DNA from: Polynucleobacter sp. MG-Unter2-18 | GTDB lineage: Bacteria > Pseudomonadota > Gammaproteobacteria > Burkholderiales > Burkholderiaceae | Direction of reading: 5' to 3' | NCBI RefSeq assembly: GCF_018687675.1 | Contig: NZ_CP061302.1 | Location: forward strand, 1,252,192 to 1,316,191 | Length of the DNA stretch: 64,000 nucleotides | Shown: in pieces, positions 33,374 through 38,554 of the stretch | Layout of the letters: every line of letters starts with the position of its first letter | How positions within the stretch are numbered: the stretch's first letter is position 1 | Made by a program: the position numbers and the translations under genes | Notes under the pieces: model-generated | What the model saw: the letters and a program-made list of their open reading frames with translations, nothing else | Told to the model about the DNA's origin: nothing | Databases searched by the model: none

Positions 33374-34417
33374 TCAATTCTTAGAACTATGAATACTATC
33401 GGCCGGTTTAGTTTTGGCAGGAACAAGATATGGATAATCTTTGACCATGCTTTGTCCTAAGAGAGGCTTATTTACACCCTGATGGCAAGTGGCGCAATTG
33501 GCTTTGGCTACATCACCATCTGGTCCCTTACGGTTATCGGGGAAAGTAGATGCTAATGAATCTATATAGTTGGTATTTACATCTTTCAGCATCTGAATAC
33601 CATGCCAAGCTTGTATACGTTGTGGCGTACTCTGCTCCCAACTACTAAAGGCGCGACTGTTATGACAGTACGTACAATTGACCCCAAGAGAGTTCGACAT
33701 GTGCGACATCACGCCATACACACTCTCGGTACTTTGTAGAGTTGCTTTATGTCCATTAGGCAATGCATCACCCCCAATAACACGCGCTGCACCGGCACCG
33801 GCCACGAAGTAGCTTCCAAAGGTGTTATTAGGTAAGGAGGCATAGGCGCTACCTGCCGTTGGATCATTTTGACCATTCTTATTACCCAGCATATTACCGC
33901 CACGGTTTTCGACTGTATTGAACCAAACATTTTGCGGGATGTTATTACCACGGTGACAGGTATAGCAAGTTACACCTGTAGTTTTTACGTGATTATTCCA
34001 AGTGCCATTGATCTCTTGATTCATCAAGATCATTTTTCTAGCAACGGTCTTGGTGTACATAGAGTCATCGGCAAAGTTTTGAACGTTATGACAGTAAGCA
34101 CAACCTTCTTTAGGAGCAACCCAAGCGGTCATAGACACCATAAAAGCGCTGAACTGAGCAGCACTCAAGTTATTAAGCACCTTGACGTTCTTGTATACAG
34201 CACCAGCCTTGGGTCCATCGGCCGATGCTGGAATTCCTGCCGGCATTTCATTGAGCTTGGCCAGCTGAGCATCTGTTCTTGGATTATTAATCTCAGCCAT
34301 ACCAGTGCCTCGGAAGCCAGTTTGCTTTGATTCTATTGGCGGCCGCTCACATGCGGTCAGCATCAAGATGCCCAGAATTCCGAATACAACTGTTAATTTA
34401 TGACGTAGGTTCTTCAT
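33374..34417 (-). CDS. pufC: Reaction-centre tetraheme cytochrome c subunit
   Basis: PufC donates electrons to the special pair from the periplasmic side. The 347-residue lipoprotein has a signal peptide ending in the lipobox LTAC near residue 23 and four heme-binding motifs in order: CAYCH, CYTCH, CTYCH and CATCH. Start at ATG 34417 overlapping the pufM stop (ATGA) and preceded by TAGGAGAG; a longer upstream frame inside pufM is a shadow. Full tetraheme set is retained. Confidence 0.97.
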
Positions 34418-35412
34418 TTTTTCTCTCCTATAGCAATTGGAGCAGCGGGCGCTGTAAGGGCGGGATCCGTCATCGTTCCATATATTGCTGGATAAGCAGG
34501 TGCTATGTCGTGCTTCACACCCCATAAATACCAGTTATCAACTACTGTGCCAGTCAACAAGATACCAATACCACCGGTCAGCGGTGTCAATATTGCAAAC
34601 CACCAAGCCCAACGGTGAATAGATTCCATAGTTGCATTGAAGCCCATGGTCCATCTCCAAAACAGTGCGGCCCGCTCTGAAGCTGTACCACGATCAACAA
34701 TTTGTTCGATTTCTCGCTCTCCACCAAAACGGCTCACCGCCAGAATGGTTGCACCATGCATTGCGAAGAGCAGGACAGAGCCATATAGAAATACGATTGA
34801 GAGCATGTGGAACGGGTTATAAAACAAATTTCCGTAGCGAATCGAGAGGGCAGCCGTCCAGTCCAAGTGAGAAAAGATGCCAAATGGAACTCCTTCACTC
34901 CAGCTTCCCATCAATACAGGTCGAATCAGACCGAGCACTAAAAATAACCAGATTGCGGAAGCGAATGCCCAAGGTACATGGTTACCCATGCCAAGTGCTT
35001 GTGCGCGGCGGAAAGTTCTGAACCACCACAACATAATGGATATCGTGGAAAAGAGACCCACAATCAGCCACCAACCACCCTCATTTAGAGGGGGGAAGCT
35101 AAGGCCATACTTAGGTGAGGGGGCATCTAGAGAAAGCCAGAACAGTTTTCTGACAAACTGAAGTGGATTCCACCCTACTTGTGCCCACATATTCATACCA
35201 ATGATGAAAAATGCCGTCATGCCGAACATGAGTGACGCGACACCAAGCCGTCCCAGATAAATCGGTCCAAGCTGAGCATTGCCTAGGCGACCCAGTAAAT
35301 GGCTAACGCCGATTGAGCGAGTTCGCTCACGCATATCGTATGCGTTAATGGGCACGCCATGACTAGCAGGTCCAGTTACTTGAGTTTGAGTAAATAAGTT
35401 TTGATATTCCAT
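34414..35412 (-). CDS. pufM: Reaction-centre M subunit
   Basis: PufM and PufL hold the special pair, accessory bacteriochlorophylls, bacteriopheophytins, quinones and the non-heme iron. The 332-residue protein has five membrane helices; [20 protein letters not shown] carries conserved histidines of the pigment site, and [19 protein letters not shown] lies in the last helix. GGAGAG precedes the ATG. It starts 32 bases after pufL and overlaps pufC by 4 bases. Confidence 0.98.
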
Positions 35413-35444: not shown

Positions 35445-36269
35445 CTACCCCCAGATAGGCAAATTCAACCACCACGTCCACCACTCAGGCCATCCTTTTG
35501 TCCAGAAAGGCCCGCTGATCACGATACAAACTGCACTCCAAAAGACGGCTGCTAATGCCAGGAATAAACCGAGGCGGTGAATTCCCAAGGTTCCTACTGA
35601 ATAACCAATAATGTCCCTGAAGAAAGTATCTTCATGCTCCGGAGTCCTGACAGTCTTACCAGCAGCAGGATTGGTAGAAGACAGAACTAAAGCACCATGC
35701 AGGGCAAGCGCTAAGGTTGTAGTGAAGAATAAGGTCACCGCAATCATATGAGCCGGGTTGTAATGAAAGTGCAGGTACTGATAACCGGTATTGGATACCC
35801 AATCAAGGTGACTCAAGATTCCATACGGGAATCCATGTCCCCATGCACCCATCAGCACTGGACGAATTACCACCAAGCTAAAGTACGCAAAAATTGCCAT
35901 GCTAAAAGCCAGCGGAACATGAAGACCCATACCCAGTTTTCTGGAGATCTCTACCTCGCGCAAAGCCCATGATCCGAATGCGCCTAAGGCACAAATCGTA
36001 ATGATTTGCCAAAGTCCGCCCTCCATCATGGGAGCTGGCCCTAGACCATACTTCAGATCGGGCGGAGCAATATTGATTAGCCAGGGATTAAAGACCCCTA
36101 CCTGAGAGGTTCCCCAAAAAATCATTGCAGTCCCGAGAAACGTAAAGAAGACTGTAGTGACACCAAAAAATCCCACGTAAAACGGGCCTACCCAGAAATC
36201 AAATAGATCTCCACCGATAAGTGTCCCGCCGCGTACGCGGTATTTCTTTTCAAAGTTGAGCATGGCCAT
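35445..36269 (-). CDS. pufL: Reaction-centre L subunit
   Basis: The 274-residue L subunit starts with the classic segment [20 protein letters not shown], has five membrane helices, the special-pair region [20 protein letters not shown] near residue 165, and ends with the tryptophan-rich [17 protein letters not shown] 36269 is preceded by AAGGAG. A 98-base gap holding a hairpin separates it from pufA, matching the puf mRNA processing region of other purple bacteria. Confidence 0.98.
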
Positions 36270-36367: not shown

Positions 36368-36544
36368 TTACTTCTTCGCTGCAGAGATTGCTGCTTTGTA
36401 CTGCTCTTGACTCATGCCATCCAACCATTTGTACTGAACAGTGCTCAATAAAATGAGATGAATCATCGCTGCCAAAGCAAAGAGAAAAACTCCTTGGGCA
36501 ACCATTGCACGTAGTGGGTCGTATAACTTCCAAATTCTCCACAT
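36368..36544 (-). CDS. pufA: LH1 alpha polypeptide
   Basis: A 58-residue antenna alpha chain. It begins [20 protein letters not shown] and has one membrane helix with the bacteriochlorophyll-ligating histidine in [11 protein letters not shown] (H29), followed by YKWLDG and a short basic tail ending AAKK. AGGAG lies 8 bases before the ATG. It is separated from pufB by an extra 73-aa gene, which is not the usual pufBA arrangement. With pufB it is the only antenna polypeptide pair in the window. Confidence 0.97.
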
Positions 36545-36554
36545 AATATTTCTC

Positions 36555-36776
36555 CTAATTTAAGTAAGACATAAAGCCGTAAACACCTGACTCGACTGAT
36601 TTGAAGAATGATCCCCCATCAGATCCAGAAAATAACCACGCCTTCTGGGAGCCAGGCAATACAACCAAAAAGAGAGCTGCCATGAAGATCACTACATAGC
36701 TAATTAAAAAAATGATCTTGAACGACACCGTGTCGGGTAGATGACTCTTGTTGATTAAATCTGCGTTGGTCTTCAT
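36555..36776 (-). CDS. Unrecognised 73-aa single-span membrane protein between pufB and pufA
   Basis: A 73-residue protein that I do not recognise. A charged N-terminus (residues 1-18, K2, K10, H12) precedes one strong transmembrane helix (about 19-41, [20 protein letters not shown]), then [20 protein letters not shown] and a tail ending GFMSYLN. Charge bias predicts N-in, C-out, as for LH polypeptides. There is no histidine in the helix, so no bacteriochlorophyll ligand. AAAGGAG stands 8 bases before ATG 36776, as strong as the pufA and pufB sites. It ends 10 bases before pufA and starts 50 bases after pufB. It does not resemble PufX or PufQ as I know them. A degenerate alpha chain, a gamma-like LH1 subunit or an assembly factor are possible. 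Confidence 0.85.
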
Positions 36777-36826
36777 ATAAAACACTCCTTTTAGTTGAAT
36801 CTATTTACTATGTACTTACTGCTGCA

Positions 36827-36973
36827 TCAAAAGAACCATGGACGCCATGCCCATACAAGTATGTGCGCGACGACAGCGATGGCAGTAAATCCAAGAAGAC
36901 CTTGCACATAAAATGCATGGAATTCTTGAGCTTCTGCATCGGTAAGCCCAGATATAGATCTGTTTTCACTCAT
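36827..36973 (-). CDS. pufB: LH1 beta polypeptide
   Basis: A 48-residue antenna beta chain. The family core [18 protein letters not shown] (residues 8-25, H19) is followed by one membrane helix with the ligand histidine in [16 protein letters not shown] (H37). AAGGAG precedes ATG 36973 by 9 bases. Located 123 bp after bchZ. Length and motifs are fully typical. Confidence 0.97.
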
Positions 36974-37100
36974 GATGACTACTCCTTGAGACTGACCTTA
37001 CGGTCTTTTCTACATCACCCCTGTAGATTTGGGGATATAGCTTTACTACGCCATATACGTTGAGCCTTTTAATAAGGCAATTTCTTTTATCAAAAGTCAT
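36966..37100 (-). CDS. Possible 44-aa ORF linking bchZ and pufB
   Basis: An ORF whose ATG overlaps the bchZ stop (ATGA) with GGAGAG 5 bases upstream, and whose TGA overlaps the pufB start region by 8 bases. The 44 residues (starting [17 protein letters not shown]) are basic and hydrophilic, with no membrane span, so this is not a PufQ of the Rhodobacter type even though pufQ occupies this place there. It may be a leader peptide that couples translation from bchZ to pufB, or chance. Confidence 0.35.
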
Positions 37101-38554
37101 ACTGTCTCTCCACTCAGGTGGGATAGCGTGGACTTTTGAACACAATCGACTGTCACTCTTTCAATATTCTGTTTGCGTGCCTCAAACTCAGCTTCATCAC
37201 GAATTCTTTTTGCAGCTGAAATTTGCGTCAGCACAGGTTGATTACTAATTAATTTATTCATCAATGCTTGGGCTTCTTCTTCCCAAGGAATAGAGGCAAT
37301 CTGGCCTTGTATTCTTGCTGGGGTTGGATCCACCTTATCCATCTCTGTACCTAATGGCAGGATGTGAAAGAGCGCATCAAATAAGGAGTTACACACTTCC
37401 TGAATCAGATAGACCGCCCCGGAATAACCCATAAACGGAGTGCCGGTATGTCGACGGATAATCGCGCCAGGGAAGGAAGCGGGAATATAAGAGAAACGTG
37501 CATTCACTTCGCTTCCGTACATCCGCTCGTTATAACTACCAAACATGACTAATGGTGTTTTCTTCTGCACCAAATCTCTCACTTCGACGTTATTCGTTTT
37601 ATTACCAGGCAATCTAGAGACGGCAAAGTTACAAGGGAGACCCATCTCATCTTCCAAGAAATTACGTACACCACGGGTATAGGTTTCGTTAGCAACGATG
37701 GCAAAACTAGCTGTGCCAAAAAAGTCTTGAGTCACAGAGCGCCATAAATCCCATGCTGGTTTGAGTGTGGTGTGCTTTTCTTTTTCGATAAAACTTTCCA
37801 CATCGATCTCACAGAGCTCACCCAGCTTACGCAGGAATGCAGTGGTCGATTGCATACCAATTGGCGCCTGTAAATAAGGGCGCTCCAGGGTCTCACACAA
37901 TAAACGTCCATATTCGCGATACATGCAAATATTGACATCCGCATTGACTAACTTGGCAACATCGGCCAGATGAGAGCTCAATGGGAACACCATATTGACC
38001 TCTGCACCAATGCCCTCTACCAAACGTCGAATTTCTGCGAGGTCGCTATATAAATTAAAGCTGCCATAGGCTGGGCCAATGATATTGACTCTCGGCTTTT
38101 CGCCTTCTGCTCTGACGCGCTGCGGAATCTTTTTGAGGCCATACTCTGTCCATAACCAATTCATGGCACGATTTGCGCACTGCCACTGATCTTCATCAAT
38201 GGTTCTGGGTAAGAAACGCTTAATTCCAGTTCCTTCTGGTGTCACACCGCCGCCAATCATTTCAGCAATAGAGCCTGTAACTACTACTGCTGGTAAATTG
38301 GGATCGAGCACCTTGTGGGCCCGCTTCATCGACTCTTCTGTACCTTCTCTACCGAGCTGCTCTTCTGCTAATCCAGTAACCACAATCGGCAACTCATGCG
38401 GAGGCAATGCATCGGTGTAATGCAAGACTGAAGTCACTGGTAAATTTTCACAACCGACAGGTCCATCAATGACAACCTGCAGCCCCTTGATAGCTGTGAA
38501 AACATACACGGCTCCCCAATAGCCGCCAGCGCGATCGTGATCAATGACTAACAT
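37097..38554 (-). CDS. bchZ: Chlorophyllide a reductase subunit Z
   Basis: BchZ with BchY forms the NifDK-like catalytic part of chlorophyllide a reductase, which reduces ring B and commits the pathway to bacteriochlorophyll. The 485-residue protein begins with [20 protein letters not shown], then [21 protein letters not shown] with a cluster cysteine near residue 35. The start overlaps the bchY stop (TAATG). Full length. Confidence 0.97.

Follow-up and report, generated by a model that had tools for sequence, protein, structure and literature searches.

A candidate histidine-less paralogue of the LH1 beta polypeptide encoded between pufB and pufA in phototrophic Burkholderiales

Besides the alpha and beta polypeptides, the LH1 ring can carry other small membrane proteins, such as PufX, protein-W and gamma. 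Protein-W has three transmembrane (TM) helices, according to the available text of PMC7806223, and Rhodopila has a gamma-like peptide of 22 residues that is inserted in the opposite orientation (PMC9640540, available text). The gene of PufX follows pufM and takes the place of pufC. PufQ (PF05398) is another small single-span protein, and its gene lies beside pufB.

The closest described counterpart of the gene analysed here comes from Roseateles depolymerans, where ORF74 (RD2015_RS05155) lies between pufB and pufA, judging by locus tag. In the accessible part of that report (PMC10037100), the major puf transcript, of 1 kb, carries ORF74 together with pufBA, and ORF74 is one of the three loci that respond most strongly to carbon starvation. 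A mutant in a sigma factor retains 0.71% of pufA, 1.09% of pufB and 2.34% of ORF74. No function is stated for ORF74 in that part of the report. A separate ORF of the same organism, ‘ORF77’ (RD2015_RS05175), is placed between pufM and pufC by locus tag and is reduced with the operon in the sigma-factor mutant (PMC10037100, Table 2, as accessible). Apart from the Roseateles paper, we found no literature on a His-less LH1 beta or on the gene described below in the accessible text of open-licence papers. In particular, a term search of the available text of a review on RC-LH1 structures (PMC10214105) returned no Betaproteobacteria, gelatinosus or PufQ, and the gene goes unmentioned in the available portions of PMC12654162, PMC3176799, PMC5374385 and PMC6052148. 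Among the PDB matches, which come without organism names, no betaproteobacterial RC-LH1 was recognised; the paper found for the nearest RC-L entries deals with Dinoroseobacter shibae (PMC12079452, available text).

Here, we focus on a 73-aa ORF, called X, in a window of 64,000 nucleotides (the whole stretch of DNA analysed) from Polynucleobacter sp. MG-Unter2-18. X resembles ORF74 in its place and in its length (74 codons for ORF74, judging by the name); the two are likened by position and not by sequence. As far as the accessible text of the Roseateles paper goes, a gene in the position of X has already been glimpsed in print.

Gene X in the puf operon and its conservation

The minus-strand order in the window is bchZ, pufB, X, pufA, pufL, pufM and, where pufC would be expected, a cytochrome-type ORF (Table 1) that recurs in most of the longer loci. 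X starts with an ATG at 36776 and stops with a TAG at 36557-36555 (73 codons), 50 nt from the pufB stop and 10 nt from the pufA ATG. Upstream, the bchZ stop and the pufB ATG are separated by 123 nt, and there is therefore no space there for pufQ or a Q-like ORF. The ribosome sites of the three genes are comparable (AAAGGAG for X, AAGGAG for pufB, TAGGAG for pufA). The last of these overlaps the stop codon of X, as it does in 11 of the 12 loci displayed in detail, which suggests possible translational coupling from X to pufA. The protein has a single strong hydrophobic stretch (maximum Kyte-Doolittle value of 3.05, in a 19-residue window from residue 21). The initial annotation had described a single-span membrane protein between pufB and pufA, preceded by a strong ribosome site like those of its neighbours, and both points agree with what is given above. 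Its further claim that X is produced together with the LH1 polypeptides is judged right.

Table 1. Features of the puf region in the window, with positions counted from its first letter
Feature	Position	Strand	Basis or remark
X (73-aa ORF; predicted His-less LH1-beta paralogue)	36555..36776	minus	same place as ‘ORF74’ of Roseateles depolymerans
Ribosome site AAAGGAG of X	36785..36791	minus	sequence
TAGGAG, stop codon of X overlapping the pufA ribosome site	36552..36557	minus	sequence
Transmembrane helix, X residues 19-40	36657..36722	minus	aligned to LH1 beta helix
V38 of X	36663..36665	minus	position of the bacteriochlorophyll-ligand His in LH1 beta
W47 of X	36636..36638	minus	conserved beta Trp nine residues past the ligand
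Amphipathic C-terminal tail, X residues 56-72	36561..36611	minus	conserved; aligned to long LH1 beta tail
pufB, short LH1 beta with His	36827..36973	minus	ends one residue past WRPWF; tail absent
pufA, LH1 alpha	36368..36544	minus	family match
pufL	35445..36269	minus	
pufM	34414..35412	minus	named from position and the same order in related loci
bchZ	37097..38554	minus	named from position
Cytochrome-type ORF in the pufC place	33374-34525		pufC name from position

With the X sequence alone as query, 31 relatives were retrieved, so X is more than a chance ORF. Polynucleobacter wuianus and P. antarcticus are named once each among these database matches, and the closest named locus is that of P. 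hallstattensis (L030, 99% identical). Among genomes of named species, a scan located 59 loci, many of them from Polynucleobacter and others from Rivibacter subsaxonicus, Rubrivivax pictus and Rubrivivax rivuli. The spacing is tight throughout a survey of 102 X loci (two without a measurable pufB gap and two without a measurable pufA gap): the pufB-type end lies 17-50 nt from the X start in 100 of them, and the X stop 9-26 nt from the pufA-type start in 100. Over 240 pairs, limited to 73-codon members with dS between 0.05 and 2, dN/dS has a median of 0.19 and a maximum of 0.58; that is, the relatives of X are under purifying selection. The initial annotation had proposed gene order and frame in relatives as checks, and both are kept, by the spacing and the constraint just described. 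X drifts faster than its neighbours. For example, at one related locus (L003) identity to the window is 67% for X, against 98% for pufB and 92% for pufA, and at another (L004) the values are 45%, 91% and 85%, respectively.

Relationship of X to the LH1 beta polypeptide

Taken alone, the X of the window has no match in Pfam or NCBIfam besides CbiN noise, and a CbiN identity was ruled out at E 0.076, below the cut-off. A profile of 28 X members, however, finds LH1 beta chains as its best matches in the PDB (8z81_B, E 1.5e-15; 7xxf_B, 2.9e-13), and no chain outside the LH group has an E-value below 0.23. In HHalign comparisons, X reaches 99.8% with the long betas of Burkholderiales (E 1e-27 to 4e-28, over 71-73 columns), 99.2-99.3% with long betas from other proteobacteria and 97% with short beta. 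Its score with LH1 alpha is below 1%, by which alpha homology was ruled out; a reversed X control gives a background of 9%. Among the 28 members scanned singly, 9 match PF00556 at E<=1 (best 4.4e-6) and 19 match the LH1 beta model NF040862 (best 4.9e-10). A tree of 66 rows and 75 columns carries a warning for its small number of columns and its long Q branches, and many of its forks are unsettled. In it, a 98/94 branch separates the Q-position ORFs discussed below from beta, and the X sequences group together (96/86) on the side of beta. By profile and tree, then, X is a divergent paralogue of the LH1 beta polypeptide.

The initial annotation had called the protein unrecognised. This still describes the window sequence by itself, which matches no named family, but not its family, whose profile identifies a relative of LH1 beta. 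In addition, the same-position ORF74 was already in print, and one annotation source automatically labels many X members ‘light-harvesting complex 1 beta chain’. Two X members from the clade of the window carry the database labels ‘SecG’ and ‘FliL’. Labels of this sort mislead about either pigment binding or the kind of protein.

Genome-wide searches connect X with LH1. PF00556, searched over 8 genomes with X, returned pufB and pufA but no X. Four of these genomes have the LH1 pair only, so X goes with LH1, and four have a second pair elsewhere, presumably LH2. In the window genome, the PF00556 matches are pufB and pufA only, and there is therefore no sign of LH2. The AlphaFold2 model of X is weak and adds little (mean pLDDT 66): it has a predicted helix at residues 15-39 (block means 70-92) and a possible tail helix at 56-72 (51-64), and Foldseek found 0 matches to it in the PDB.

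Compared with LH1 beta (PufB; PF00556, NF040862), X falls in the long-beta size class; its helix aligns, it keeps the Trp after the ligand site, and its tail aligns to that of the Burkholderiales long betas. It differs in that it occurs beside a normal beta, that the window X scores nothing in PF00556 or NF040862 and, above all, that it lacks the ligand His. In one alignment, this residue is absent from all 88 distinct X sequences (a truncated X, L020, was excluded) and present in 53/53 short and 13/13 long betas; at the earlier, second His position of beta, His occurs in 2 of the 88. Because the ligand His is absent, we count X as an LH1-beta paralogue by alignment and do not file it as a light-harvesting polypeptide. 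The ligand His is also absent from the 150 countable proteins among 151 database proteins listed, which were selected by X searches and one of which is without the anchoring Trp. In place of the His, the 88 sequences have Gln (47), Val (13), Ile (7), Lys (5), Thr (5), Leu (4) or others (7). The residue four before the site, Ala in betas, is small (Ala, Ser, Cys or Thr) in 88/88, and W47 is kept in 87/88. The initial annotation was right that the helix of X has no histidine. Two other details of that annotation have to be corrected: the residue equivalent to the ligand is V38 and not F36, and W47, which had been said to recall the ‘WLDG’ of LH1 alpha, corresponds to the conserved Trp nine residues past the ligand in LH1 beta.

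Conservation within X is highest in the tail. Its motif VYxFMS is nearly invariant (V65, Y66 and S70 in 88/88, M69 in 86/88), and its mean entropy (residues 56-72) is 1.12 bits, compared to 1.59 for the hinge, 1.76 for the helix and 3.18 for the N terminus. The tail is also amphipathic: the helical moment of the window tail was matched by a fraction of 0.000 of 5000 shuffles, and that of the consensus tail by 0.014.

Distribution of X, long beta and Q-position ORFs

X is widespread in phototrophic Burkholderiales. Out of 399 genomes drawn from this order, 46 have pufL, and these fall into three kinds. X occurs together with a short (tail-less), His-bearing beta in 38; in one of them (G087) the operon is split over contigs, with pufA beyond reach. 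Five have a long beta, with 27-28 residues past the PW motif, and X is absent. The remaining three belong to a single genus; their beta is short, and a Q-type ORF precedes pufB. Given this pattern, none of the 46 operons is without a beta-like polypeptide that has a C-terminal tail. At E<1e-10, X matches were found in 44 genomes: five of these matches are the long betas, and one of the remaining 39 genomes (G308) is without a pufL match. The long LH1 betas of L130, L133, L139, L140 and L186 (Burkholderiales) have a C-terminal extension closely resembling the X tail, e.g. SMIDGVKAAVNSFMPYVFM.

Outside the order, X was found between pufB and pufA in none of 32 pufL loci of other phototrophic Pseudomonadota (27 loci came from 398 genomes drawn across the phylum, and 5 from 369 genomes drawn across the class). 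Upstream of pufB, ten of these loci have a Rhodobacter-type PufQ, 13 a Q-type ORF and nine neither, as far as was found; the profiles used drew in part on these very loci, most of which extend only 1.5 kb past pufL, and a divergent Q could escape.

The phylogenetic replication of the pattern is limited. On a PufL tree that took in 71 of 77 loci, the comparison of loci with and without X offers one well-supported independent contrast for the joint occurrence of X and short beta, or four counting all branches, supported or not, and an independent-pairs test of X against short beta gave one starred pair and no significance. With one supported contrast, an account by complementary loss rests on homology and position and not on repeated evolution. 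Some of the loci have oddities of their own. In three (L189, L191 and L193, from G244, G273 and G110), pufA is unusual (41-42 bits with the Burkholderiales alpha profile) and pufB is also low-scoring (65-69 bits). Burkholderiales-type puf operons also occur in two metagenome bins (L077 and L047) whose titles, Klebsiella pneumoniae and Thermoflexus hugenholtzii, therefore look wrong.

The Q-position ORF (order bchZ-Q-pufB) is a second beta paralogue by profile. HHalign gives 98.3-98.8% for Q with the Burkholderiales long beta and 98.1-98.8% for Q with X; Q with LH1 alpha gives 0.2-0.3%, and reversed controls 0.3-1.0% (2.3% for the one-genus, three-sequence Q set). The Q-position paralogue occurs in many alpha- and gammaproteobacterial phototrophs and in one Burkholderiales genus (L149, L172, L178, L180, L196, L134). 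Databases hold 234 members at E<=0.01. Among the 120 listed, many are from Methylobacterium, and the names are mostly hypothetical or uncharacterized, with one ‘MFS transporter’. A crude A-H pattern is present in at least 40 Q members (40 of the 120 listed), and some of them may thus keep the helix His. For one Q-position ORF (L169), the PufX family scores far under its cut-off (E 0.16, 12.1 of 25 bits).

Possible roles of X

The homology, the loss of the ligand, the conserved tail, the tight spacing to pufA and the distribution were all computed here. Together, they look like the outcome of a duplication of a tailed beta with complementary losses, a history that few independent events support. 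That is, a tailed pufB would have been duplicated in tandem in phototrophic Burkholderiales. The copy beside bchZ would have remained a true beta, retaining its His and losing its tail, and the copy between pufB and pufA would have lost the bacteriochlorophyll His and retained the tail. By homology, X would insert N-in as beta does and sit beside LH1 alpha without pigment, and its amphipathic tail may dock on the periplasmic side, against the RC, the cytochrome or alpha. In this scheme, X would serve as an end subunit or a placeholder, present in low copy, and would determine where the LH1 ring begins, where it ends or where it lets quinones through. We consider a low-copy, pigment-less, beta-type partner of alpha, at a ring end or as a placeholder with its tail docked periplasmically, to be the most likely role, with about an even chance of being correct.

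A more specific form of this proposal is that one antenna polypeptide was split in two, and that X is a pigment-less beta in a fixed place that leaves or guards a gap for quinones. Such a ring-breaker would be of antenna-subunit origin, unlike PufX, protein-W or gamma; we put it forward tentatively, as possible but rather unlikely. X may work like one of these small ring proteins. A PufX identity was ruled out: PF11511 is not among the 21 Pfam families matched at E<=1 by the 28 X members, and the gene does not lie after pufM. Protein-W has its three TM helices where X has a single span, and the Rhodopila peptide (PMC9640540, available text) has 22 residues where X, which is beta-related and whose orientation is predicted from homology, has 73. 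The PufX-like element of the initial annotation finds no likeness in sequence, and the role in ring closure or assembly that it gave to a gamma- or PufX-like element may still hold. Its candidate RC-LH1 subunit or assembly factor stays plausible, with the family turning out to be an LH1 beta paralogue.

Ranking next is the possibility that X acts only during assembly, as a transient mimic of beta whose tail is an assembly signal and which is absent from the finished complex; we hold this to be a serious if less probable alternative. The mature beta of Rps. palustris (Ser2-Ala53) has lost its final 12-13 residues by cleavage (PMC7806223, available text), which points to an assembly job for such tails. 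By analogy, tails may serve assembly only and not ring structure, and X would supply in trans the function that a cleaved beta pro-tail has elsewhere. The conservation of the X tail while the helix drifts, and the faster divergence of X compared to pufB and pufA (at L003 and L004, above), are in keeping with such a helper. On the other hand, pufBA with ORF74 is the most strongly changed transcript in the accessible Roseateles data (PMC10037100), as would fit either an abundant subunit or a helper.

A third alternative is that X is the Burkholderiales counterpart of Q or PufQ and tunes tetrapyrrole supply, PufQ being known to bind ferrochelatase (PMC5725709, available text). X and Q match each other by profile (98%) and have the layout of a TM helix plus a tail in common, and Q shares the position of PufQ. 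In addition, the Q profile was searched through 16 Burkholderiales genomes, in which its matches to X with pufB (8), to Q with pufB (3) and to a long beta alone, with neither X nor Q (5), never overlap; one extra weak match, in G254, has E 0.09. Yet X lies after pufB, groups with beta rather than with Q in the tree (98/94) and has no supported match to PufQ: PF05398 finds no match in X, and HHalign gives 17-33% with nine PufQ sequences, of which two scanned match PF05398 (4.6e-37 and 6.5e-29). PF05398 is also absent from the five Q-type ORFs scanned. Direct homology of Q and PufQ as a link to X was dropped when profile support of 75-89% with a small Q set fell to 7-24% with a larger set. Considering also the five phototrophic Burkholderiales with neither X nor Q, we regard this role as improbable.

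It is far less probable still that X ligates bacteriochlorophyll through Gln or water, as a spectrally special beta. Gln can ligate chlorophyll in plant antennas; it occupies the ligand site in 47 of the 88 X sequences, and the small residue four before it is kept in all 88. Against this, the window X has Val at the site, and with Val, Ile, Leu, Ala or Gly in 27/88, pigment binding is unlikely as a common function of X. Finally, that the ORF merely spaces or couples the translation of pufB and pufA, with the peptide having no role, would fit the overlap of its stop codon with the pufA ribosome site but is hardly credible: the median dN/dS and the invariant tail residues point to selection on the protein, and an ORF without a protein role was ruled out on the dN/dS.

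What is known about the opening of the LH1 ring for quinones, and about the guidance of its assembly, comes from complexes solved for a limited number of species. Should X be a stable subunit, a widespread group of freshwater phototrophs would have a third puf antenna-type polypeptide that structures would have to accommodate. Should it be an assembly factor instead, pigment binding and the job of the beta tail would be separated, and the latter would therefore be genetically testable in Roseateles, where the operon is strongly inducible.
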